Both the position numbers and the translations under genes were made by a program. The notes below the pieces were generated by a model that was not told where the DNA came from, made no database searches, and saw only the letters and a program-made list of their open reading frames with translations. From contig NZ_KZ984558.1 in assembly GCF_003574445.1 (NCBI RefSeq), positions 186,001-250,000 of the forward strand: a stretch of DNA of 64,000 bases, read 5' to 3'. Source of the stretch: Streptomyces sp. YIM 130001 (GTDB lineage: Bacteria; Actinomycetota; Actinomycetes; Streptomycetales; Streptomycetaceae). Positions 1 through 34,892 of this stretch are shown here, in pieces; the first letter of the stretch is position 1; each line of letters opens with the position of its first letter.

Positions 1-2373
1 CACCGGCCGCCCGATCGGCACAGGGCCGGTGTCCCCGGCCTCGCAGGTGTGATGGCTGACGTCGACCGCGGCCTCGGTCGGCCCGTACAGGTTGTGCAGG
101 CCGACCCGGGGCAGCACCTTGCCGAAGGCCTGCGCGGTCTCCCGCGGCAGCGCCTCGCCACTGCAGAACACCCGGCGCATTCCCGAGCACAGCCCGGCGA
201 CATCGGCGCCCCCGGTCAGGAAGACCTGCAGCATGGACGGCACGAAGTGGCAGGTGGTGACGGCCTGTTCGGCGATCAGCCGGGCCAGGTACACCGGATC
301 CTTGTGGCCACCCGGCTCCGCCACCACAAGGGCCGCGCCCTCACGCAGCGGCCAGAAGAACTCCCACACGGACACGTCGAACGAGGACGGGGTCTTCTGC
401 AGAACCCGGTCGTCGGACCGGAGCCCGTAGGTGTACTGCATCCAGCGCAGCCGGTTGTCGATCGCACCGTGCGACACCACCACGCCCTTGGGGCGCCCGG
501 TCGACCCCGAGGTGTAGATGACGTAGGCCGGGTCCGCAGGCGTCAGGGGCCTCGCCGGATTCGTCGGCAGGTACTCCGCGAGTACGCCGGCGTCGAGCTC
601 CGGCAGGACGACGAGCGGGGTCCCCGCCTCCTCCGGCAGCCGGCTCGCCCGGTCGGTCACGGCGCACACCGGCGCCGCGTCTCGAAGCATGTAGGTGAGC
701 CGCGCCTGCGGATACTCGGGGTCGAGCGGCAGATACGCCGCACCCGACTTGAGGATCGCCAGGAGCGACACGACCAGGTCCACGGAACGCGGCACCGCGA
801 CGGCGACGAGCCGCCCCGGGCCCGCGCCGAGCGACTGCAGATGCCGGGCCAGGCGGTTGGAGCGGGCGTTCAGCGCGCCGTACGTCAGCGAGGTGTCGCC
901 GAAGACCAGGGCCGTGGCGTCCGGGCAGCGAGCGGCACGTGACTCGATCGGACCGATCAGGGTCGTCGGCGGCAGATCACGCTCGGTGCGGTTGAACTCG
1001 TCGACCACCAGGGCGCGTTCGGCCTCGGTGGCGATGCCGTGCGCCCCGAGCTGTGCCTGCGGGTCGGTGTTCGCGAGAGCTTCGAGCAGGTGCAGGAAAC
1101 GGTCCTGATGGGCCGCGAGAGCCGCGTCGTCGTACAGCGCCGGATTGCCGTCGTGATCGATGCGCAGGCCTCGGCCGTCGGCGCGGTCGTAGACGTTGAC
1201 CGTCAGATCGTCGACCGGCCCGGCGGACAGATTGCGGGCGCGTGCCTCGGTGCCGGCGAAGTCCAGGGCGTAGTCGAACGGCATGACGTTCACCAGCGGA
1301 CCGACCAGGCCGCGGCCCTCGCCGAGCAGACCCAGATCGCGGCGGATGTCCTCGTAGCGGTAGCGCTGGTGCCGGCGGATCTTCCGTACGCCGAGCACCA
1401 CCTGCCGCACCAGTTCGGCGAACGTGTCCGTCGGCGAGACGGTGAGCCGCAGCGGCAGCACGTTCATCACCATGCCGGGGATACGCAGCGACGCCGAGCC
1501 GACCCGGCCCATCATCGGCAGCCCGAGGACCACGTCCGACTGCGCGGTGGCACGCGAGGTGTACAGGGCCTGGGCGGCGATCAGCACCTCCGGCCAGGTC
1601 GCCCGCAGCCGGCCCGCCACCTCACGGAGCCGTTCCGCGGTCACCTGCGGCAGATGGGCGGTCCGCCGGCGGAACGTACGGCCGGGCAGCGCGCCCCGGC
1701 CCGCGAGCCGAGGCACCTCGGGGCGGTCGGCGAAAGCCTCCGACCAGTGGTCGCGGTCCGTCGCGTACGCCTCGGACGCCCGGTACTCCGCGTCCTGCTC
1801 CACCAGTTCCTCGAGTGAGCCGAAGGTGCGGGCGGACGGTTCCTCGCCGCGCGCCAGGGCCGAGTAGACCTCCGCCGTACGCCGCGCGAGCAAGGAGTAG
1901 CCGAAGCCGTCGATGACCAGGTGGTGGATGCACTGGTACCACAGCCACCGGTCGTCGCCCACGCGGAACAGGGCCTGGCGGAACAGCGGACCGGCCGTGA
2001 GATCGCAGGGGGTGGCCAGGTCCTCACGCATCCACGCCTCGGCCCGCTCCTGCCCGTCGGCACGACCGCTGAAGTCCAGGACGGTGAGCGGCAGTTCGGC
2101 CTCCGCCTCCACGTACTGCCGCGGCCCGTCCGGGGTGTCCACCACACGTACCCGAAGCACATCGGCTTCCGCGGCGACCCGGCGCAGGGCGGCGGCGAAC
2201 AGGGCCGGGTCGAGCGGGCCGTCCATCTCCAGGCACTCCGCGGTGTTCTGCGCGGGGCTGAGCGGGTCGAGAGCCTGGGCGAACCACATGCCCGACTGGG
2301 CGGCGGTGAGCGGGAGTTCGACCGGAGGCACCACGTCGGCCGACGTGCCCGGATCGGTGTGCAGGAGTGTCAT
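1..2373 (-). CDS. dhbF: Catechol siderophore NRPS, condensation-adenylation (partial, 3' end outside window)
   Basis: Non-ribosomal peptide synthetase that would condense carrier-bound 2,3-dihydroxybenzoate with an amino acid. The 791 visible residues show a condensation domain (about 10-440, active-site HHLVIDG at 150-156) and an adenylation domain from about 470, with core motif YTSGSTGRPKGV near 620 and NLYGPTEA near 770. The gene runs off the left edge, so the carrier and any thioesterase domains are not seen. Aligned by eye to GrsA, the binding-pocket residues read D-V-W-H-F-S-L-V-D, which I recall as the serine code of EntF. The ATG start at 2373 overlaps the carrier-protein stop by 4 bp, indicating translational coupling. 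An EntF-like role is inferred; the serine call depends on a manual alignment. Confidence 0.9.
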   Translation of the reverse strand, partial: MTLLHTDPGTSADVVPPVELPLTAAQSGMWFAQALDPLSPAQNTAECLEMDGPLDPALFAAALRRVAAEADVLRVRVVDTPDGPRQYVEAEAELPLTVLDFSGRADGQERAEAWMREDLATPCDLTAGPLFRQALFRVGDDRWLWYQCIHHLVIDGFGYSLLARRTAEVYSALARGEEPSARTFGSLEELVEQDAEYRASEAYATDRDHWSEAFADRPEVPRLAGRGALPGRTFRRRTAHLPQVTAERLREVAGRLRATWPEVLIAAQALYTSRATAQSDVVLGLPMMGRVGSASLRIPGMVMNVLPLRLTVSPTDTFAELVRQVVLGVRKIRRHQRYRYEDIRRDLGLLGEGRGLVGPLVNVMPFDYALDFAGTEARARNLSAGPVDDLTVNVYDRADGRGLRIDHDGNPALYDDAALAAHQDRFLHLLEALANTDPQAQLGAHGIATEAERALVVDEFNRTERDLPPTTLIGPIESRAARCPDATALVFGDTSLTYGALNARSNRLARHLQSLGAGPGRLVAVAVPRSVDLVVSLLAILKSGAAYLPLDPEYPQARLTYMLRDAAPVCAVTDRASRLPEEAGTPLVVLPELDAGVLAEYLPTNPARPLTPADPAYVIYTSGSTGRPKGVVVSHGAIDNRLRWMQYTYGLRSDDRVLQKTPSSFDVSVWEFFWPLREGAALVVAEPGGHKDPVYLARLIAEQAVTTCHFVPSMLQVFLTGGADVAGLCSGMRRVFCSGEALPRETAQAFGKVLPRVGLHNLYGPTEAAVDVSHHTCEAGDTGPVPIGRPV

Positions 2374-2603
2374 GAGACCTTCACCCCCAGCATCGGTGCC
2401 CAGGCCTCGATGGCCGGCTGCTCGGCGAGATCGGCGAAGTCGGCGGTGACCGCGTGGTCACGACGCCAGCCCTCGAGCAGGGCCATGATCCGGACCGAGT
2501 CGAGGCCGTAGTCCAGCAGGTTCTCGTCGAAGGGGATCTCGGCCGGCTCCTCGCCGAGCGCGTCGGCGACGTCGGCGCGGATCTGTTCCACGGTGAGCGC
2601 CAT
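2370..2603 (-). CDS. Stand-alone aryl carrier protein
   Basis: Small acyl/aryl carrier protein of 77 residues. The phosphopantetheine site is the Ser in LLDYGLDSVRIMALL, S36. It lies between the isochorismatase (4 bp away) and the NRPS (4-bp overlap). In EntB and Bacillus DhbB this domain is fused to the C-terminus of isochorismatase; here it is a separate polypeptide. Its expected role is to hold 2,3-dihydroxybenzoate as a thioester, loaded by DhbE, and to present it to the condensation domain of the next gene. Position and motif make this the most likely reading; an ordinary peptidyl carrier protein cannot be strictly excluded. Confidence 0.88.
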   Translation of the reverse strand: MALTVEQIRADVADALGEEPAEIPFDENLLDYGLDSVRIMALLEGWRRDHAVTADFADLAEQPAIEAWAPMLGVKVS

Positions 2604-2607
2604 CGGT

Positions 2608-3240
2608 TCAGGCCTCCTTGAAGAGGGCGTCGGTGGTGGTCACGACCGCGCAGCGCCCGGCGGCCCAGGTGAGAGCCATGTCGTGGTCCGCGCGGGAGAA
2701 GTCGGCCACGGCGTCGGCCACGACGAAGGCCTGGATGTCACGCATCCAGGCGTCGCAGGCCGACATCAGTACGCCGATGTGCGCGTAGACACCGACCACC
2801 ACAAGCTGGTCACGGCCCGACTCCCGCATCAGATCGGCGAGTTCGGTGCGGACGAAGGCGCTGTACTTCCACTTGGTGAGCCAGGTGTCACCGGGTTCGG
2901 GTGCGACAGCGGCCGGCGTCGCGAGCGCTTCGGGGCCATCGGCCACGCCGGGCCCCCAGAAGTCGAGTTGGAGCCCGCGCTCCTCGGGAGTCTGACCGCC
3001 GCGCTGCGCCGAGTAGACCACAGGGACCGAGCGCTTGCGGCTCTCGGCGAGGACGCGCGAGGTGTTGTCGAGGAGCCCGGTGAGCGGCTCGGTCCCGGCG
3101 GGAAACGCCTTCAGGAAGTGATTCTGCAGGTCGTGCACCAGCAGTACGGCGCGGGACGGATCGACCTTCCACGACACGCGGTTGGCGGGGAGTTCGCCCT
3201 CGGTGGGCAGGGCGTAGGGGGCGATGGCGGGAAGTGCCAT
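2608..3240 (-). CDS. dhbB: Isochorismatase (2,3-dihydro-2,3-dihydroxybenzoate synthase)
   Basis: Cytoplasmic hydrolase cleaving isochorismate to 2,3-dihydro-2,3-dihydroxybenzoate and pyruvate, second step of DHB synthesis. The 210 residues match the isochorismatase domain of EntB/PhzD: catalytic Asp in LLVHDLQNHFL (D37), the lysine segment TKWKYSAF (about 122-129) and the family hallmark GVYAHIGVLMSA (about 150-161). The carrier domain normally fused to EntB is missing because it is encoded by the next gene. It lies in the middle of the dhb operon, 28 bp after dhbE. Confidence 0.93.
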   Translation of the reverse strand: MALPAIAPYALPTEGELPANRVSWKVDPSRAVLLVHDLQNHFLKAFPAGTEPLTGLLDNTSRVLAESRKRSVPVVYSAQRGGQTPEERGLQLDFWGPGVADGPEALATPAAVAPEPGDTWLTKWKYSAFVRTELADLMRESGRDQLVVVGVYAHIGVLMSACDAWMRDIQAFVVADAVADFSRADHDMALTWAAGRCAVVTTTDALFKEA

Positions 3241-3268
3241 GAGGGTGGGGCCTTTCGGTGCGTCCCGG

Positions 3269-4927
3269 TCAGTGGTGCTCGGCGGTGGCCGCGGTGGAAC
3301 GCAGCCCCTTCTTGCTGATCTTGCCGATACCGGTCTGCGGGAAGGTGTCGACGAACTCGACGAGGTCGGGAATCTTGTACGCGGCGAGCCCTCGCTCCCG
3401 CACGAAGCGTTTCACCGCCACGGACTTCAGGGGTTCGGCGCCGTCGCGCAGGATCACGTACGCCAGGGACCGCTCCCCGAGGTACTCGTCGGCGACCGCG
3501 ACGACCGAGACGTCATGTACGGACGGATGCGCCAGGATGACGTTCTCGACCTCCTCCGGGGCGACCTTCTCGCCGCCCCGGTTGATCTGGTCCTTCGCCC
3601 GGCCCTCGACCACGAGATGACCGGTCCCGGTGCGCCGCACGATGTCACCGGTCCGGTAGAAACCGTCCCCGGTGAAGGCCGTGGCATTGTGCTCCGGTGC
3701 CCGCCAGTAACCGCGGATGGTGTACGGGCCGCGGGTCAGCAGATGTCCGAACTCCCCTTCTGCGACGTCGAGTCCGGCGTCGTCGACGACCCGCACCTCG
3801 TCGTCGGGCGAGATCGGCAGACCCTGAGTGGTCACCACCGTCTCGTGGTCGTCGTCGAGCCGTGTGTAGTTGACCAGGCCCTCCGCCATGCCGAAGACCT
3901 GCATCAGCCTGCATCCGAGCGCCGGTTCCAGGCGACGGGCCGCAGCCTCGCTGTACTTGGCGCCGCCGACGAGAACCAGCTCCAGGCTGGTCAGGTCGTA
4001 CTCCGTCGACTCGGCGCTGTCCGTCCAGACCAGCGCCAGCGGCGGCACCATCCCGGTCATGGTGATCCGCTCCTGCTCGATCAGCGGGAACGCCGTCGCC
4101 GGATCGGGCCCCGGGCACAGCACGACCGTGCCGCCGGCGTACAGCACGCCCAGCCAACCCGGTGAACTCATAGGGAAGTTGTGTGCCGCCGGCAGCACCA
4201 CGAGGAAGCGGGTGTCCTCGTCCACACCGCAGATGTCGTTGGACCCCCACAGCGAATACAGGTAGTCGTCGTGCGTGCGCGGGATCAGCTTCGGCACACC
4301 GGTGGTCCCGCCGGACAGCTGGAGGAACGCCAGCTGGTGCGGCGCCGGTTCGTCCGGCCGCTCCGAGGGCGGCTCGCACGGCACGTCGGCGAGCGCCGTG
4401 TGCTCCCCGGGGTCACCGGCCACGAACACATGCCGCAGGCCAGGAGTACGCGCCTTGACCGTGGAGGCGAGCGCGCGGTGGTCGAAGCCCGCGTGGCGGT
4501 CCGGGATCACATAGGCCACGGCCTCGGTGAACTCGCAGAAGTAGGAGATCTCCGTCTCCCGGTGCGCGGGCAGCGCGTACACCGGCAGCGCACCGATGCG
4601 CAGCAGCGCGAAGACCACCTCGATGAACTCACCGGCGTTGGGCAGCTGCAGCACCACCCGGTCACCGGGACCGATGCCCCGCTGCCGGAACCCTTCGGCC
4701 AACCGGTCGACGGCGCGGTCGAGTTGGGCGTACGTCCAGGTGCGGCGCTCGGGCGCGGGATCGACCAGAGCGATGCGGTCGGGGTGCTGGGCGGCGCGCT
4801 CGCGCAGGACTCCGCCGAAGGTCTCGCCGCGCCAGTAGCCGGCCGCACGGTAGCGCTCGGCGTACTCGGCGGGCCAGGTCGGCGCGTCGGCCCCGGGGGT
4901 GAGTGCGGGGATGTCGACGGTGGTCAC
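3269..4927 (-). CDS. dhbE: 2,3-dihydroxybenzoate-AMP ligase
   Basis: Adenylates 2,3-dihydroxybenzoate and transfers it to the phosphopantetheine arm of the aryl carrier protein. The 552-residue length suits EntE/DhbE. Visible motifs are the P-loop [24 protein letters not shown] (the His-Asn pair contacting the aryl acid in DhbE), YRTGDIVRR and the C-terminal lysine region GIGKISKK. I chose the GTG at 4927, which overlaps the dhbC stop as GTGA and begins the conserved N-terminus [12 protein letters not shown] longer open frame up to 5080 runs inside dhbC and is not needed. Confidence 0.95.
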
Positions 4928-6141
4928 AGGGCGGCCCCCACCGCGCCGAGGAAGGTGCGGAACTTGGCCGCGGTCTCGGCGGTCTCGGCCTCCGGCGTGG
5001 AGTCGGCGACCACGCCGGCGCCCGCGTACAGCCGCAGCCGGTTGCCCTCGGCCTCCGCGCAGCGGATGGTGACGACCCATTCGCCGTCACCGGAGTCGTC
5101 CTGCCAGCCGACCATCCCGGTGTACGCGCCCCGGTCGAAGGGTTCGGACGCCGCGATCACGTCCCGCGCCACCGCCGTCGGCGTACCGCACACCGCCGGA
5201 GTGGGATGCAGCGCGGACGCCAACTCCAGTGCGCCGGTGCCGGGTTCGGCGAGATCGCCGGTGATGGAGGTGGACAGGTGCCACATGGCCGCGGTACGTA
5301 CGAGCGTCGGCCGCTCGGGCACGTCCAGGCGGGTGCAGAACGGGGCGAGGGCGGCGCCGACCGCATCCACCACCACCGCGTGCTCGTGGAGATCCTTGGC
5401 GGACTCCAGGAGCGCGGCGGCCCGGCGCACATCCTCGGCCAGGTCGGGACTGCGCGGCGCGGACCCGGCCAGCGGATTGGCGATCAACTGCCCGCCGCGG
5501 CGAGCCACGAGGAGCTCGGGGCTCGCCCCGATCAGGGTGCGGCCGGCGCCGCTCGGCAGGGCGAAGGTGTACCCGGAAGGGTCCCGGTGGGCGAGCCGCC
5601 GCAGCATCGCCGGCAGGTCCGGTGGCTGCGGCGAGGACAGCTCCAGGGTGCGCGCGAGCACCACCTTGTCGAACTCGCCGGCCCGCATCCGCGCCACGGC
5701 CGCGGCGACAGCCGCCCCGTACGCATCGGCAGCCGGTACTTCACGCACCCGCCACCCCGCGTCCGACGCCTGCTGAGGCACGGGAAGCGCGATCAGCGGG
5801 TCCTTGTGCAGTGCCGGTGCCGTCCGAAGGGACGCGGGCACGGCGAGCGAGGCCGGTGCGTCGGGTGCGAAGGGCACGGAACCGATCACCACCGGCGACG
5901 GGGCACCGGCGCGACGGGCGTCGTCCAGAGCCGCAGCCACTCGGACCGCCAACGGCCTCTCGTCGTGCGGTATTTCGGATCGGATCCCGCGTGCGAGCAG
6001 AGTGTGCCGTGGCGTGGCGAGAAAGCGGTCAGTGCCCGGCCGGTAGGCCTCGAGCAGCGCCGTCGCGGCGCCGGGAGTGAGGGGCACTTCGGTGGAGGCG
6101 TGCCCGGCCGGCGCGACGGGTTCACGCAGAGAGGCAGACAT
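4924..6141 (-). CDS. dhbC: Isochorismate synthase
   Basis: Converts chorismate to isochorismate, the committed step of catechol siderophore synthesis. The 405-residue protein is a chorismate-binding (EntC/DhbC/MenF) enzyme with [10 protein letters not shown], the active-site segment [30 protein letters not shown] and C-terminal [13 protein letters not shown] followed by IRCAE. The ATG at 6141 has a GGAG sequence about 10 bases upstream. Its stop overlaps the dhbE start. A 192-bp gap separates it from dhbA, the largest gap in the operon, so a second ribosome entry site or weak promoter there is possible. Confidence 0.95.
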
Positions 6142-6333
6142 GAGGGTCTCCAGTGGGGGAGGGCCACCCGCCGCGATCGACGGCGTGCGGTGGCGCGGAC
6201 GGTGGCTGGGACGAGTGGGGAAATCCGGTGGCCGGGTGGGGTGGGTCCGGGGGTACGCCTGGCCGGGTTCGCCGCGACGGCGGAGAAAGGCCGCACACGG
6301 CGGGGGAGGCGTCCGGGGCCGGCGTCACACCGT

Positions 6334-7128
6334 TCAGGCCCTGAGCGTGGCGCCGCCGTCGACGTACAGGTCGTGCAGAGTGATGTGGCGGGCGCGGTCG
6401 GACACCAGGAAGGCGACCGCATCCGCGATGTCCTCGGGCCCGGCGATCCGCCCGAGCGGAATGCCCGTTCGGTACGACTCCGGGTCGCCCGCGACGATCC
6501 GCCGGGCTGCCTCCGTCTCGTCGACGCCGGATTCGGCCCACATGCCGCGCTGCATCTCGGTGAGGGTCGAGCCGGGGGAGACGGTGTTGCAGCGCACTCC
6601 GCGCGCGGCGACCTCGAGGCCGAGGCACTTGGTGAACATGACCGCCGCCGCTTTCGACGCCGCGTACGCGGCCATGCCGGAGCGGGGTACCCCTGCCGCG
6701 TTGGAGGCGACGGTGACGATGCTTCCGTGACCGCGCTCCGACATCCGCCGGGCGGCCGCCCGGCTCAGGTGGAACACGCCGTCGGCGTTGACCGCGAAGG
6801 TGGCGGACCAGTCGTCGTCGCTCAGTTCGGTGACCGGGCCGCCGCGCAGAACGCCGGCGACGCTCACCGCGATGTCCAGTGCGCCCAGTTCGCGTTCGGC
6901 CTCGTCGACGAGGCGTTCCACGGCGTCGGCGTCGGTGACGTCCAAGGCGCGGGCGGTCACCCGGGTGGGATGCTTCACGGCGAGCGCCGCCACGCCCGCC
7001 GGGTCGAGGTCGGTGGCCAGGACTCGGGCACCGCGCTCCACGAGCGCGTTCACCACAGCCTCGCCGATGCCTCGGCCGGCACCCGTGACCAGGGCGAACC
7101 GCCCGGCCAGCTCCTGATCGACAGTCAC
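6334..7128 (-). CDS. dhbA: 2,3-dihydro-2,3-dihydroxybenzoate dehydrogenase
   Basis: Short-chain dehydrogenase oxidising 2,3-dihydro-2,3-dihydroxybenzoate to 2,3-dihydroxybenzoate with NAD+. The 264 residues include the Rossmann motif TGAGRGIG (15-22), Ser142 and the YAASK catalytic pair Y155/K159. The start is GTG at 7128, overlapping as GTGA the stop of a small upstream frame. It appears to be the first enzyme gene after the iron box at 7470. The DhbA/EntA assignment rests on operon context, since SDR sequence alone does not fix the substrate. Confidence 0.92.
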
Positions 7129-29718: not shown

Positions 29719-30090
29719 TCAGACCTCCAGGCTGTCCTCGATGCGCTTGAGCTGATGGCGGGCCATCGCGAGGTTCGCCCGGTCCTTCTGCAGCGCGAGG
29801 TACAGGAAGAGCCCGGCACCGCTGCGGTTCTTGAGCAGTCGGATGAGGTGGTACTGGCTGCCGAGCGTGATCAGGATGTCCTCGATCTCGTCCTGGAGGC
29901 CGAGGTGCTCCATCGTACGGACCTTGGCCCGCACCACATCGGTGTTCCCCGCCGCGGCGACGGTCAGGTCGAAGTCCTTGCCTCCCCCGATCGTGCCGAG
30001 CGCCATCCCGCTGGTGTAGTCGACGAGTGCGGCGCCGACGGCACCCTCGATGGCGACGGCTTCCTTGAGTGCGGTTTCGGTGTTGGACAT
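29719..30090 (-). CDS. Roadblock-like small protein
   Basis: A 123-residue cytoplasmic protein with roadblock/LC7-like topology: GAVGAALVDYTSGMALGTIG, DLTVAAAGNTDVVRAK, EDILITLGSQYHLIRLLKN, LFLYLALQKDRANLAMARHQL. It is a clear paralogue of the first gene of the cluster (VDWTSGLALG, YHLMRF, NLALAR). Such proteins act as dimeric platforms, often for small GTPases, but none is encoded here. The ATG at 30090 lies 92 bp after the canonical roadblock gene. The function is unknown. Confidence 0.75.
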   Translation of the reverse strand: MSNTETALKEAVAIEGAVGAALVDYTSGMALGTIGGGKDFDLTVAAAGNTDVVRAKVRTMEHLGLQDEIEDILITLGSQYHLIRLLKNRSGAGLFLYLALQKDRANLAMARHQLKRIEDSLEV

Positions 30091-30182
30091 GGCTGGTGCG
30101 CGTTCCTTCCGTTCGTCGGGTGTGCTGCTCGTGGTGCTCTGTGCGGGTACGGACTGTGGTGTGCGGGTGCGGCGGGCAGCGA

Positions 30183-30569
30183 TCACGCCTCCTGGGGTCG
30201 ATCGAGGGCGGTGTCGAGCAGCTCACCGATCCGGGCGCCGGAGCGCCGGGCCTCGAGGTGCAGCCGACCGACATTGATGCGTTCGTCGGCGAGCAGGGTC
30301 AGGACTGCCGAGCGGCCTGCGGCGTAACTGGCGACATAGCCGTGCTCGCCTCGCACGAGGAGCTCGCGGAAGTCGCCGCGGCCGGTGGCTTCGGTCAGCC
30401 GCAGCGCCACACCGAGTGCGGCAGCCGTGAGGGCGGCGACCCCCTCCGCCTCCCCGCTGTCCGAGGCGATCACCAGGCCGTCGGTACTGGCCGCGAGTCC
30501 GCCGGTGAGCTGCGGGACGCGAGCCCGAAGGCGTTGCAGTTCGCCGAGCACGTCGGCCTCGGCGGTCAT
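30183..30569 (-). CDS. Roadblock/LC7 domain protein
   Basis: Canonical roadblock/LC7 (MglB/CvnB-like) protein of 128 residues: VPQLTGGLAASTDGLVIASDSG, VAALTAAALGVALRLTE, FRELLVRGEHGYVASYAAG, AVLTLLADERINVGRLHLEARR. In Streptomyces conservons, CvnB partners a sensor-kinase-like CvnA, a DUF742 protein and a GTPase, CvnD; those partners are absent. The ATG at 30569 follows GGAGA; an open frame to 30611 lacks a ribosome site. It is probably a dimeric scaffold in signalling or polarity. Confidence 0.85.
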   Translation of the reverse strand: MTAEADVLGELQRLRARVPQLTGGLAASTDGLVIASDSGEAEGVAALTAAALGVALRLTEATGRGDFRELLVRGEHGYVASYAAGRSAVLTLLADERINVGRLHLEARRSGARIGELLDTALDRPQEA

Positions 30570-30648
30570 GAGCTGTCTCCTCTCGGCGCGCAGCCGCAGC
30601 GCGCGCCTCATGACGGATCGCGCGGGGCCCGGCGGGTCGGCCGATGGG

Positions 30649-31422
30649 TCACAGGTGTGCCTCCAATGCGTCGCGGAGCCGGCGTAACAGGGCGACGTCC
30701 GGGTCGTCGGGGAACGCCGCGACCCAGCCGGGCAGCTGTGCGGTCGGCTCCGCCACGGGTGCGGACGGCGTCTCGACGAGTCCCGCGGCGGCCATCCGCC
30801 GCACGTCGAGAAGGGTGTGAAAGGCCGGGCGGCCGAGCAGCCGGGCGATCACGGTGGGTGTGCGTTCCCCGTCGGCGAGAGCGAGGAGCGCACGCTGGCG
30901 CGGAGCGGCCACGGGCGCATCGGGCAGGGCCGCGGGCCGAACCGGCGCGGAGTCGATCTCGGGGTACGGCCACACGGCGTCGAGCAGCTCCCTGCGGCGC
31001 CGCGCCTCACGGGCGACGTCCGTCGCCGCCACCGGCCGGACCCGGCCGAGCCAGTGGGCCACGCCGTACCGGAAACGTGTGGGCCCGCTCGCCGGGGCGA
31101 GGGTGAAGTAGGCGGCGTCGTGCAGCGCGCCCAGATGGCAGATCTCCAGTTCGCCGTCGGCCAGTTGACCGCTGTCGACGAGGAACCGGCCGACCTCGCG
31201 ACGCGCCCCGGCCTGCTGCACCGCCTCGTCCCAGCCGGTGCGGGCGAGCCGGCCGCCGGCCGTGAGGAGCACGTCGATCCCGGGGGCGGCCGGGCTCTCG
31301 GCGTGCACCACCTGCCCGTCGGCCAGATAGAGGACGCCGTGGTCGCGTACGAGGACTCCGGTCGCGCCCTCGTCGGCGAGCCGGGCGAGCATCGGGGACA
31401 CCGCGCCTGCTGCCGAAGTCAT
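30649..31422 (-). CDS. DUF4388-like regulatory protein
   Basis: A 257-residue protein whose N-terminal half resembles DUF4388 (PatA N-terminal type): GATGVLVRDHGVLYLADGQVVHAESPAAPGIDVLLTAGG, then VGRFLVDSGQLADGELEICH. The C-terminal part (about 170-257) has a winged-helix-like stretch, RALLALADGERTPTVIARLLGRPAFHTLLDVRRMAAAGLVETP, suggesting DNA or protein binding. Its ATG overlaps the stop of the preceding roadblock-like gene as ATGA, so the two are coupled. It probably links roadblock proteins to gene or partner control. Confidence 0.7.
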   Translation of the reverse strand: MTSAAGAVSPMLARLADEGATGVLVRDHGVLYLADGQVVHAESPAAPGIDVLLTAGGRLARTGWDEAVQQAGARREVGRFLVDSGQLADGELEICHLGALHDAAYFTLAPASGPTRFRYGVAHWLGRVRPVAATDVAREARRRRELLDAVWPYPEIDSAPVRPAALPDAPVAAPRQRALLALADGERTPTVIARLLGRPAFHTLLDVRRMAAAGLVETPSAPVAEPTAQLPGWVAAFPDDPDVALLRRLRDALEAHL

Positions 31423-31853
31423 CCGAGTACCAGGCGGTCGGCGAGATCGGCCATCCGCAGTCGGGCCAGCGCCAGGTTGCCGGTCTCGCGATCGAGCCAG
31501 AGGTGCAGAAAGACGCAGCTGTCGAAGCTGGTCTCCACGAACCGCATCAAGTGGTATGCGGAGCGCGTGGTGACGATCAAGTCCTCGACCGGCAACCCTT
31601 TCGGCGCCTTGGTGTCGTCAGCGCCCGCATCACCGGACGGGGGCGGGGCTCCGGGCGACTCCGCCGTGAAGGACCGGTACTCGGCGGCCATGCGCGCAAG
31701 TTCCGCCGTTTCGGCGGCAGTTGCCTCCCCGTCGCCACCGGGGCTCTCGCCGGCCGCACCGAGAGCCAGACCGCTGGTCCAGTCCACGATGGACGCCCCC
31801 AGTGCGCCGGGCACATCCATCGCCTGCACCAGGCACGCGTCGATTCCGGGCAC
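31419..31853 (-). CDS. Roadblock-like small protein, first gene of cluster
   Basis: A 144-residue paralogue of the 123-residue protein at the end of the cluster: GALGASIVDWTSGLALGAAG, DLIVTTRSAYHLMRFVET, VFLHLWLDRETGNLALARLRM. The two differ by an inserted Pro/Gly/Asp-rich loop (about 60-85) here. The GTG at 31853 follows GGGGAG. Two small dyads lie upstream. It is co-translated with the DUF4388-like gene and could form a heterodimer with one of the other roadblock proteins. Confidence 0.72.
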   Translation of the reverse strand: MPGIDACLVQAMDVPGALGASIVDWTSGLALGAAGESPGGDGEATAAETAELARMAAEYRSFTAESPGAPPPSGDAGADDTKAPKGLPVEDLIVTTRSAYHLMRFVETSFDSCVFLHLWLDRETGNLALARLRMADLADRLVLG

Positions 31854-32065: not shown

Positions 32066-33271
32066 TCAGCCGGCGAGCGAACCGTTGAAGAGGCTTGCCA
32101 GTGCGGTCCGTTGAGCCGCCACGGACGCCACGGGGTCGACCGTTCCGATGAGCGACTTGACCACATCCCCCGGCAGGTCGAGTGCGTCGGCGAGTTGGGG
32201 GATCAGCACCTGCGAATCGGTGAAGCTGCCGTGCGCGGCGCCCCGCAGCTCCTTGCTGCGGTGCGGTCCCGTGCTGTGGCGGACCAGCTCGCCCCAGGAC
32301 GGCACGGTGTCCGGACTGTGGCCGTCCTTGCCGTAGAGCAGGAACGGCCGGTCCACGCCGTCCAGGGCCACACTCGCGTAGTGCCCCGGCTGTGCGTCCT
32401 CCTGTACGAAGGCGAGTACGCCGTCGAGGTCGGCCGCAGCCCGCACCCGCCGGTCGTCGTGCATCCACTGCAGCGCGGCGAACCCGCCCGCGGACTGGCC
32501 GTAGGCACCCACCCGTGAGAAGTCGGCGACTCGACGCAGCTGCGGAGGCAGGGCGGAGCGCAGGGCATCGAGGACGAAGCGGAGGTCCGCGACCCGTACC
32601 CCGAGGGTCTTCTTCAGCAGGGCCCGTACGCGCTCCTCGTCGCCGCCCGTGGCCTCGAACTCCGCCAGCAGGCAGGTGCGTTCGACCCGGCCGCCCGGAA
32701 ACTCCACCGCCGAGGCGTCGTACGTGTGGTCCACCACGACCACCAGGAAACCGCGCGAGGCCAGATCGTCCGCCGTCGTCGTTCCGTACGTGCGGGGGTC
32801 CATGACGCCGGGGGAGTAGAGCACCACCGGCAGCGACTCCGTCCCGGCGTGGACCGGAGCCTGTTCGTGTGCGTGGGTGAGTGTCGCCGCCCAGTCCACA
32901 CGGTCCGCAGGCACATCGGCCAGGTTGTTGAGCTCGGCGAAGCCCGCTGCCGCGCCCGGCTGCATCTGCGCGGCCCGCGGGTGGCCGTGCACCGCCCGTG
33001 CCGGATAGCGCACGTCCACCATCAACTCCCGCTGCGGGCGGTCGGGCATCCACGGATCGCGGCGAGCCCGGTCCACCAGATGCGCCGAGACCGTACCCAC
33101 GGGGTGCCGGCCGCCAGGAGCGGTCAGTTCGAGCCGCACGCCGCGACTCCCCTTCCTGCGGGGGGACTTCCGGCTGGACCCTCCTTCGCTTCCCAAGGCG
33201 GAGTGGACGGGTGCGGCGACGGCGAGGGCCCCGGCTGCGGCGGTGAGGAGGGCGGTGCGGCGGGTCGGCAT
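32066..33271 (-). CDS. Secreted PAF-acetylhydrolase-like alpha/beta hydrolase
   Basis: Exported esterase of 401 residues. It has a Tat-like signal (MPTRRTALLTAAAGALAVAAP) and an alpha/beta-hydrolase core with oxyanion region LYSPGVMDPRTYG, nucleophile Ser in GQSAGG, Asp in AADLDGV and catalytic His in GAAHGSFTD. The segment LMVDVRYPA is usual in the platelet-activating-factor acetylhydrolase and dienelactone-hydrolase-like group. The natural substrate is unknown; lipid, polyester or small-ester hydrolysis are all possible. The ATG at 33271 has GGAG. It is divergent from the S1 protease gene. Confidence 0.88.
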   Translation of the reverse strand: MPTRRTALLTAAAGALAVAAPVHSALGSEGGSSRKSPRRKGSRGVRLELTAPGGRHPVGTVSAHLVDRARRDPWMPDRPQRELMVDVRYPARAVHGHPRAAQMQPGAAAGFAELNNLADVPADRVDWAATLTHAHEQAPVHAGTESLPVVLYSPGVMDPRTYGTTTADDLASRGFLVVVVDHTYDASAVEFPGGRVERTCLLAEFEATGGDEERVRALLKKTLGVRVADLRFVLDALRSALPPQLRRVADFSRVGAYGQSAGGFAALQWMHDDRRVRAAADLDGVLAFVQEDAQPGHYASVALDGVDRPFLLYGKDGHSPDTVPSWGELVRHSTGPHRSKELRGAAHGSFTDSQVLIPQLADALDLPGDVVKSLIGTVDPVASVAAQRTALASLFNGSLAG

Positions 33272-33746
33272 TTTCGGGTCTCCGATGCGTGGGCGGTGCG
33301 AGCGGTCGAGGTCTTGGCAGGTGCCGGTTCGTCAGATGCCTCGGCATCTCGACGACCGTCCTCGACAGGTTCTCGCCCGCCGGTGCGAAGATCCATCCGG
33401 TCAGCCGGTGGACGGCTCTGGGGGATTTCCCCCACGCTGCACCCCGCACGGTTCCGGGCGCGGCCGCCACCGTAGGTCTGGACAAAGCCGCTCACGGGTG
33501 CTGTTGTATCTGATGCGCCGTGATACTCCGGCGTCGGAGGGGGAGTTGGCCTCCTCGTGTCGGCTCGGCCCGTTCCTCCGTGCCCTCTCGCAGTTGCGCT
33601 CCCCAGCACCGGAACCGTGGCCCGACGTACCGCGCCGGGCCGTCTCGCACGTATCGCCTGAGAGCGCTCTCAGGCGATGGGCGCCTCGGCGCCCGCAGCA
33701 CCTGATGTTCCTCCCCACGACCACGGAACAACAGAAGGGCCCACAA
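33272..33746. other. Divergent control region, hydrolase / S1 protease
   Basis: 475 bp between divergent genes for secreted enzymes. Its main feature is a 26-bp perfect palindrome at 33653-33678. No gene was recognised in the remainder. Confidence 0.7.
33653..33678. promoter_or_regulatory. 26-bp perfect palindrome with CebR-like core
   Basis: Each 13-base half mirrors the other exactly. The core TGAGAGCGCTCTCA (33659-33672) differs at two symmetric positions from the CebR/CelR box TGGGAGCGCTCCCA, as I recall it, so a LacI-family repressor is the likely ligand. It lies 68 bp upstream of the protease GTG. Confidence 0.65.
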
Positions 33747-34892
33747 GTGAGACGTACCAAGGGATTACGAGCAGGTCTGTCCACGCTGCTGTTGATCGCC
33801 GGCACTTGGGGCGGCGCGACGGCGCTCGCTCCGGCGGCCGCGGCCCAGCCGGCTCCGGAGTTGTCCCGCGGCCTGGAGGCCGCCATGGCAAGGGACTTGG
33901 GGCTCACCCAGACCCAGGCCCGTGACCGTCTCGCCGCCGAGCGCGAGGCGGCGGCGGTGGAACGCAAGGCCGAGGCGTCGGCCGGTGCGACGTACGCGGG
34001 TTCCTGGTTCGACGCGAAGAGCGAGCGCCTCACCGTCGCACTGACGAGCAGTCAAAAGGCAGAAAAGATTCGCCAGTTGGGTGCCACGACCCGCATCGTC
34101 GAGCACACCGCCGCGGACCTGGACGCCGCCAAGGAGCGCATCGACAGGATCGACGCGCCCTCGGCGGTGAGCGGCTGGCAGGTCGACCCGAAGGCGAACC
34201 GGATCGTGGTCGACGTCGTCGAGGGCCGCGAGGGCTCCGCCTCCGTACGCGCCTTCCTCGCCAAGGCCCGCGACGCAGGACCCCTGAAGGTGGAATCCGT
34301 GCCCGAGGCGGCCTCCACCTTCGCCGCCGGCACCGTCGGCGGCGACCCCTATTACACGGGCAACGTCCGCTGTTCCATAGGCTTCTCGGTACACGGCGGC
34401 TTCGTCACCGCAGGACACTGCGGCGGCGCGGGCGCAGGAGTACGAGGCTGGGACGGGTCCGACATCGGAACCTTCCAGGGTTCGTCCTTCCCCGGCGACG
34501 ACTACGCCTACGTCAGCGTCGGCAACGGCTGGTGGACCGAACCGGTGGTGATCGGCTGGGGAACCATCCCCGACCAGTTGGTACGCGGCTCCGCGGAGGC
34601 ACCGGTCGGCTCGTCGATCTGCCGCTCGGGTTCGACCACGGGCTGGCACTGCGGCACCTTGCTCGGCACCAACGAGACGGTCAACTACTCGGACGGCGCG
34701 GTCGTCCACGAGCTGACCAGAACCAGCGTCTGCGCCGAAGGAGGCGACTCGGGCGGCTCGTTCATCAGCGGCGACCAGGCCCAGGGCGTCACTTCCGGCG
34801 GCTGGGGCGACTGCAGCAGCGGCGGCGAGACCTGGTTCCAGCCCGTCAACGAGATCCTCGGACGCTACGGTCTGACCCTGCACACCGCGTGA
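33747..34892 (+). CDS. Secreted S1 serine protease (streptogrisin/alpha-lytic type) with TTA codon
   Basis: Extracellular chymotrypsin-fold protease of 381 residues. Signal peptide about 1-34, pro-region about 35-195 with the alpha-lytic-protease prodomain pattern, mature enzyme from about T196/V197. The triad is His224 in TAGHCGG, Asp251 or 252 in GDDYAYV and Ser335 in GGDSGGS. Cysteines pair plausibly as 209-225, 292-302 and 329-356. The GTG at 33747 has AAGGG 8 bases upstream. Codon 7 (33765-33767) is TTA, the only in-frame TTA I found in the window, so expression should need the bldA tRNA. A LacI-type palindrome lies upstream. Confidence 0.95.
   Translation: MRRTKGLRAGLSTLLLIAGTWGGATALAPAAAAQPAPELSRGLEAAMARDLGLTQTQARDRLAAEREAAAVERKAEASAGATYAGSWFDAKSERLTVALTSSQKAEKIRQLGATTRIVEHTAADLDAAKERIDRIDAPSAVSGWQVDPKANRIVVDVVEGREGSASVRAFLAKARDAGPLKVESVPEAASTFAAGTVGGDPYYTGNVRCSIGFSVHGGFVTAGHCGGAGAGVRGWDGSDIGTFQGSSFPGDDYAYVSVGNGWWTEPVVIGWGTIPDQLVRGSAEAPVGSSICRSGSTTGWHCGTLLGTNETVNYSDGAVVHELTRTSVCAEGGDSGGSFISGDQAQGVTSGGWGDCSSGGETWFQPVNEILGRYGLTLHTA

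Follow-up and report, generated by a model that had tools for sequence, protein, structure and literature searches.

The window analyzed here, a 64-kb stretch from a genome assembly of 8.04 Mb and 59 contigs, carries a module of four coding frames, all on the minus strand, running from 31853 to 29719. G1 (31853-31419) starts at GTG behind the ribosome-binding site GGAGGGGAG and encodes a protein of 144 amino acids that has no Pfam match and is predicted, by homology to its paralogue G4, to be a divergent roadblock-fold protein. G2 (31422-30649; 257 amino acids) has a PATAN/DUF4388-like N-terminal domain with a helical hairpin, followed by a C-terminal winged helix and a C-terminal helix (DPDVALLRRLRDALEAHL). 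G3 (30611-30183; 142 amino acids) is a canonical roadblock/LC7 protein of the CvnB/MglB-like kind, and G4 (30090-29719; 123 amino acids) is a second divergent protein with a predicted roadblock fold, also without a Pfam match. An alternative G4 frame of 155 amino acids opens at GTG 30186, which is not the conserved start, since homologues begin at ATG 30090. The preliminary description had coupled the first two genes through ATGA, and this overlap of the G1 stop and the G2 start is read directly at 31419-31422 of the minus strand. It had also ended the cluster in a 17-bp terminator. A perfect 17-bp inverted repeat with a 5-nt loop does lie 3' of G4 on the minus strand (29599-29615/29621-29637; fold z = -5.1), but its T run is absent, so that it is best called a possible terminator.

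Compared with the nearest relative, the four genes differ mostly at third codon positions and have dN/dS values of about 0.26 (G1), 0.10 (G2), 0.07 (G3), and 0.05 (G4), and therefore they are protein genes under purifying selection. Queries with CvnA to CvnD, the components of conservons, retrieved no other conservon component in the 64-kb window, where both GTPase and kinase are absent; the claim of a four-gene cluster lacking a linked GTPase or kinase thus stands. A promoter scan yielded no lead. Near the module, on the opposite strand, lies a gene for an alpha-lytic-type secreted protease (33243-34892). The start of the window (1-7128) probably belongs to a siderophore cluster of the catechol (2,3-dihydroxybenzoate) type, with Pfam matches to condensation/AMP-binding nonribosomal peptide synthetase domains, a carrier protein, and an AMP ligase, and with an isochorismatase-like gene and an SDR gene recognized by looking at the sequence.

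The four genes are a genuine conserved unit. Co-occurrence in other genomes was the point on which the preliminary description had let its reading depend, and in a scan of species genomes G1, G2, G3, and G4 were all present at 56 of 80 named G4 loci. The full module occurs in at least 15 named genera from five families of filamentous and related actinobacteria, among them Streptomyces, Kitasatospora, Actinacidiphila, Streptacidiphilus, Nonomuraea, Thermoactinospora, Planomonospora, Streptosporangium, Microtetraspora, Actinomadura, Nocardia, Actinoplanes, Paractinoplanes, Nucisporomicrobium, Asanoa, and Planosporangium. In relatives, genes were called by homology and with a simple frame score rather than taken from curated annotation, and counts of neighbor genes are raw, with kinship among loci ignored. 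Within the window's genus, nearly all relatives checked have the four genes in the same order, and a G4 search found a close copy in roughly five of six genomes and none in about one of six. G4 is inverted in the modules of a sister family (f3; L066-L075) and in some second copies within the window's genus (L079, L081, and L133). A Streptomyces plasmid of 158 kb also carries the module, and the RefSeq product names there are, from G1 to G4, hypothetical protein, transcriptional regulator, roadblock/LC7 protein, and hypothetical protein. No additional neighbor is constant across module loci; there is ordinary local synteny within families only, as in Nonomuraea-like loci. In Nocardia higoensis, two G3-G4 pairs surround one module (L189, 363-3668).

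G3 scores 59.9 bits against Pfam Robl_LC7 (cutoff, 23), its family profile matches the PDB structures of cvnB5 (3leq) and MglB, and its comparison with CvnB gives an hhalign E value of 2e-16; all E values from such short profiles are approximate. CvnB proteins form their own clade (95/98), excluding G3, in a small roadblock tree. On these comparisons, G3 is a homologue of CvnB and MglB that falls outside the CvnB clade. Membership of the roadblock/LC7 superfamily is thus indicated for G3 by Pfam, for G4 by predicted fold, and for G1 through its homology to G4.

G1 and G4 are homologous (hhalign E = 7e-32), which bears out the earlier view that two diverged paralogues bracket G2 and a roadblock protein. 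Neither has a reliable Pfam match, a search against NCBIfam returned no specific family, and the two make up one separate family. Of the four proteins, G4 shows the strongest conservation, with a mean column identity of 70% across 29 members. Its AlphaFold2 model (pLDDT 92) has the element order alpha-beta2-alpha-beta3-alpha, as in roadblock proteins, and its best Foldseek matches, with E values of about 1e-6 and TM-scores of 0.7 to 0.8, are roadblock proteins, LAMTOR, and MglB. G4 is accordingly predicted to carry the roadblock/MglB/LAMTOR fold, and G1 probably has a roadblock fold by its homology to G4. Profile comparison does not link G4 to true roadblock proteins, and searching PDB sequences with the profile of G4 gave no useful match; the weak bridge to true roadblock proteins is G1 (E = 3e-5 versus G3). 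G1 proteins form a single clade (100/99) apart from all G4 proteins, in a tree with few columns and many open forks, suggesting an early split of G1 and G4. MglA docks on the alpha2 helices of the MglB dimer (PMC6785124). In G4, helix alpha2 has a conservation of 3.5 bits versus 3.18 overall, and strands beta3 to beta5 are higher still, a pattern that fits, but does not prove, a retained binding face. A close relation of G4 to MglC was rejected, as the match to 7ct3 (TM-score, 0.59) is weaker than those to MglB and LAMTOR, and G4 was rejected as a CvnE or CvnF protein, as G1 to G4 contain no P450 or GAF domain.

The DUF4388/winged-helix protein of the preliminary description is present as G2, although its DUF4388 (PATAN) score of 19.2 bits stays under the gathering cutoff of 25. 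DUF4388 matches at E<=0.01 are found in 18 of 22 G2 homologues, the individually seen scores being all subthreshold and the highest 24.6. The AlphaFold2 model of G2 reaches a pLDDT of 83, and a PDB fold search with it gave no match under 1e-3. Some G2 proteins give weak matches to winged-helix models of Pfam. The G2 profile aligns with that of conservon CvnC (DUF742) at an hhalign E value of 3e-6, across the winged helix and an end motif that reads DPD..LLRR...AL.AL in G2 and DP.LL..V..GLR.L in CvnC. At E<1, the CvnC profile matches 31 of about 101 G2 proteins versus 5 of 1,719 decoy open reading frames, and 24 true G2 tails but no shuffled ones exceed 10 bits; a few G1 rows likewise match this profile weakly. 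The DUF742 Pfam model itself matches 1 of 22 G2 proteins, and the plasmid-borne G2 weakly (E = 0.027). We conclude that the C-terminal half of G2 appears to be related to CvnC, a kinship that is weak in sequence and rests partly on the generic winged helix. The G2 of locus L064 has a degraded winged helix and a retained end helix.

A second resemblance to conservons concerns the motif LPxR, which has been reported to typify CvnA kinase tails in conservons (PMC4316618) and is found in 18 of 19 CvnA rows of this analysis. It occurs in the tails of 28 of 95 G2 homologues, versus a mean of 3.7 and a maximum of 11 in shuffles. The LPxR-bearing tails lie mainly outside the main Streptomyces lineage, and the window's own G2 lacks the motif. 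In Nucisporomicrobium, an additional G2-like (PATAN) gene precedes G1 (L201, 3317-3898), as it does in the Actinoplanes-group loci L202, L214, L217, and L254.

GTPases are absent beside the module and present beside other G4 homologues. With CvnA to CvnD as queries, no conservon was found within 8 kb of module loci, with the sole exception of L053, where the GTPase neighbor is coincidental, and the module was on this ground rejected as a part of an adjacent conservon. The preliminary description had named homologues consistently flanked by a GTPase-containing conservon as the finding that would count against it; this applies to some G4 homologues outside the module and never, the chance case of L053 aside, to the module itself. 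Since no module in any genome examined has a linked GTPase, the module may have lost the direct binding of a GTPase. At a locus from another class (L169), the genes for G4, for a Ras-like GTPase, for a roadblock protein, and for a 382-amino-acid protein lie in close succession. G4 was found in 9 of 60 genomes searched in one other family, and in 6 of these 9 a GTPase gene and a roadblock gene are adjacent. GTPase, roadblock, and G4 genes are consecutive in a gammaproteobacterial metagenome-assembled genome (L227), and on an Agarilytica plasmid (L278) G4 is accompanied by genes for a BLUF protein, a GTPase, and a roadblock protein. The BLUF blue-light sensor of this plasmid (4333-5061) lies between G4 and the GTPase-roadblock pair and is a possible light input to the Ras-like system. 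In the sister family f3, six G4 genes (L067, L068, L072, L074, L076, and L077) are divergent from complete conservons with a short CvnA, which in L072 matches only ATPase-domain models in Pfam; here G4 is possibly a further accessory protein in addition to CvnE and CvnF. Overall, linkages of G4 to GTPases occur in at least four separate lineages, with only some of the cases independent.

Lone G4 genes without a nearby GTPase make up 45 of 169, a somewhat overcounted figure. In relatives from the window's genus (L122-L132), a stand-alone G4 is followed at most loci by a conserved ArsR-type helix-turn-helix gene. CvnD homologues were found in 29 of 30 genomes, the exception having lone G4 genes and no module, and every module-bearing genome searched has several CvnD homologues in trans. 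This is little proof of a connection, because conservons abound in such genomes. G4 homologues of about 39 to 60% identity, annotated as hypothetical, also occur on plasmids of Comamonas, Deinococcus, Acinetobacter, Agarilytica, Methylomagnum, and Hymenobacter (L273, L274, L276, L278, L279, L280, and L283), and the G4 family is thus spread over several phyla.

What might such a module do? Conservon papers regard CvnC and CvnD as functional partners (PMC8510531 and PMC13343842), and in the Cvn8 system they act as one functional pair (PMC8510531). Because the module combines CvnB-like, CvnC-like, and roadblock parts without CvnD, we give an even chance to the reading that it modulates conservon CvnD-type GTPases in trans, as a GTPase-less cytoplasmic complex. 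Such a regulatory complex would consist of three roadblock-fold subunits (G1, G3, and G4) and a PATAN-plus-CvnC-like adaptor, G2. G3 and G1/G4 would act as roadblock dimers that bind a CvnD-type GTPase from one or more conservons at other sites of the genome; the CvnC-like C-terminal part of G2 would bring this protein into the complex, to which it would add signal input (PATAN) or output (winged helix). In this way, the module could tune, couple, or insulate conservon signaling. In this scheme, we infer the binding in trans, the direction and output of the signal, and the ability of G2 to bind DNA or protein. A streptomycete has about ten conservons, and the present widespread module, which combines CvnB-like and CvnC-like proteins with additional roadblock subunits but has neither kinase nor GTPase, is a direct candidate for their shared modulator. 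More tentatively, G4 might found an unrecognized roadblock family that reaches Actinomycetota, Pseudomonadota, Deinococcota, and Bacteroidota and joins MglB as a third partner of Ras-like GTPases in bacteria, and the module might be a transferable GTPase-less adaptor into many conservon GTPases, linking their signals. If so, bacterial Ras-like GTPase systems of several phyla would gain a further component from proteins that now bear the annotation hypothetical.

The main rival, and the one nearest to the preliminary description, is a self-contained complex for transcription or scaffolding that works without a GTPase and is built around a DNA-binding G2, in which roadblock dimers hold G2, its winged helix sits on DNA, and an old GTPase link has been lost. 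We consider it unlikely, even though no GTPase was found beside the module with the CvnA to CvnD queries (L053 again excepted), RefSeq calls the plasmid-borne G2 a transcriptional regulator, some G2 proteins match winged-helix models weakly, and the four genes travel as a set on the 158-kb plasmid. The G2 of L064 keeps the end helix shared with CvnC despite its degraded winged helix, so DNA binding is not a constant part of G2, and G3 and G4 remain close to families that accompany GTPases. Nor is there support for the claim that the module is self-contained and unlike any system that can be named: G3 is a homologue of CvnB and MglB on profile evidence, the C-terminal half of G2 appears CvnC related, many relatives' G2 proteins carry LPxR, and G4 homologues adjoin MglA- or CvnD-type GTPases in several lineages. 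An improbable alternative is that G1/G4 and G3 form a scaffold that positions the PATAN protein for another NTPase or at the cell pole, like MglB/MglC/RomR in Myxococcus or the eukaryotic LAMTOR2/3. The matches of the G4 model to MglB and LAMTOR suit this idea, as do MglB-MglC complexes, in which roadblock paralogues are able to bind each other (PMC7949163), and reports of PATAN proteins near MglA and MglB genes (PMC4316618); on the other side, G4 is structurally nearer to MglB and LAMTOR than to MglC. A decaying conservon remnant, or unrelated neighbors without a common function, would account for the missing CvnA and CvnD and for the lack of a close G4 in about one-sixth of the genus genomes, and it was rejected as very improbable on conservation and dN/dS (0.05 to 0.26), given that the gene set recurs, its order mostly unchanged, in many genera of several families, and given the single old G1 clade apart from G4.

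A modulator of conservon GTPases in trans is our preferred reading, and its parts can be set beside known systems. Our literature search found no description of the four-gene module, in agreement with the claim that it is undescribed, and no papers on DUF4388 with roadblock proteins or with Streptomyces or on roadblock proteins with sporulation. Compared with MglA-MglB, the module has the MglB-like G3 but no MglA GTPase. A small actinobacterial MglB clade consists only of orphans that are not flanked by conservon genes (Wuichet and Sogaard-Andersen, PMC4316618); G3 matches the description of this clade and may belong to it, and the account of the clade in that paper mentions no partner genes. 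The same paper places PATAN proteins near MglA genes and cites an earlier report for MglB genes (PMC4316618); G2 resembles PATAN (DUF4388) proteins in its N-terminal half but differs in its score below the Pfam cutoff and its CvnC-like fusion. MglA group 3 systems of beta- and gammaproteobacteria have one or two MglB proteins and an unknown protein in which a receiver-like and a winged-helix part are predicted (PMC4316618). The G4-bearing operon L227, and probably those of L276 and L278, resemble them, and some G4 operons may belong to this kind; the GTPase carried there, however, is absent from the window's module. As in the MglB/MglC/RomR system of Myxococcus xanthus, several roadblock-fold proteins would serve one Ras-like GTPase whose gene does not always adjoin those of its partners, but G4 has no detectable sequence relation to MglC and the module has no response regulator.

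The closest comparison is with conservons. The module shares with them a CvnB-like roadblock protein (G3), a putatively CvnC-like part at the C terminus of G2, LPxR in the G2 tails of many relatives, and the same host group, and some G4 homologues outside the module adjoin complete conservons. In contrast, it lacks the CvnA histidine-kinase-like protein and the CvnD Ras-like GTPase, adds two proteins of the G1/G4 family and a PATAN domain, and has a G4 that is neither CvnE (P450) nor CvnF (GAF). Without CvnA or CvnD, and with G3 outside the CvnB clade, the module is not a conservon; it is best read as a GTPase-less relative of these actinobacterial G-protein systems.
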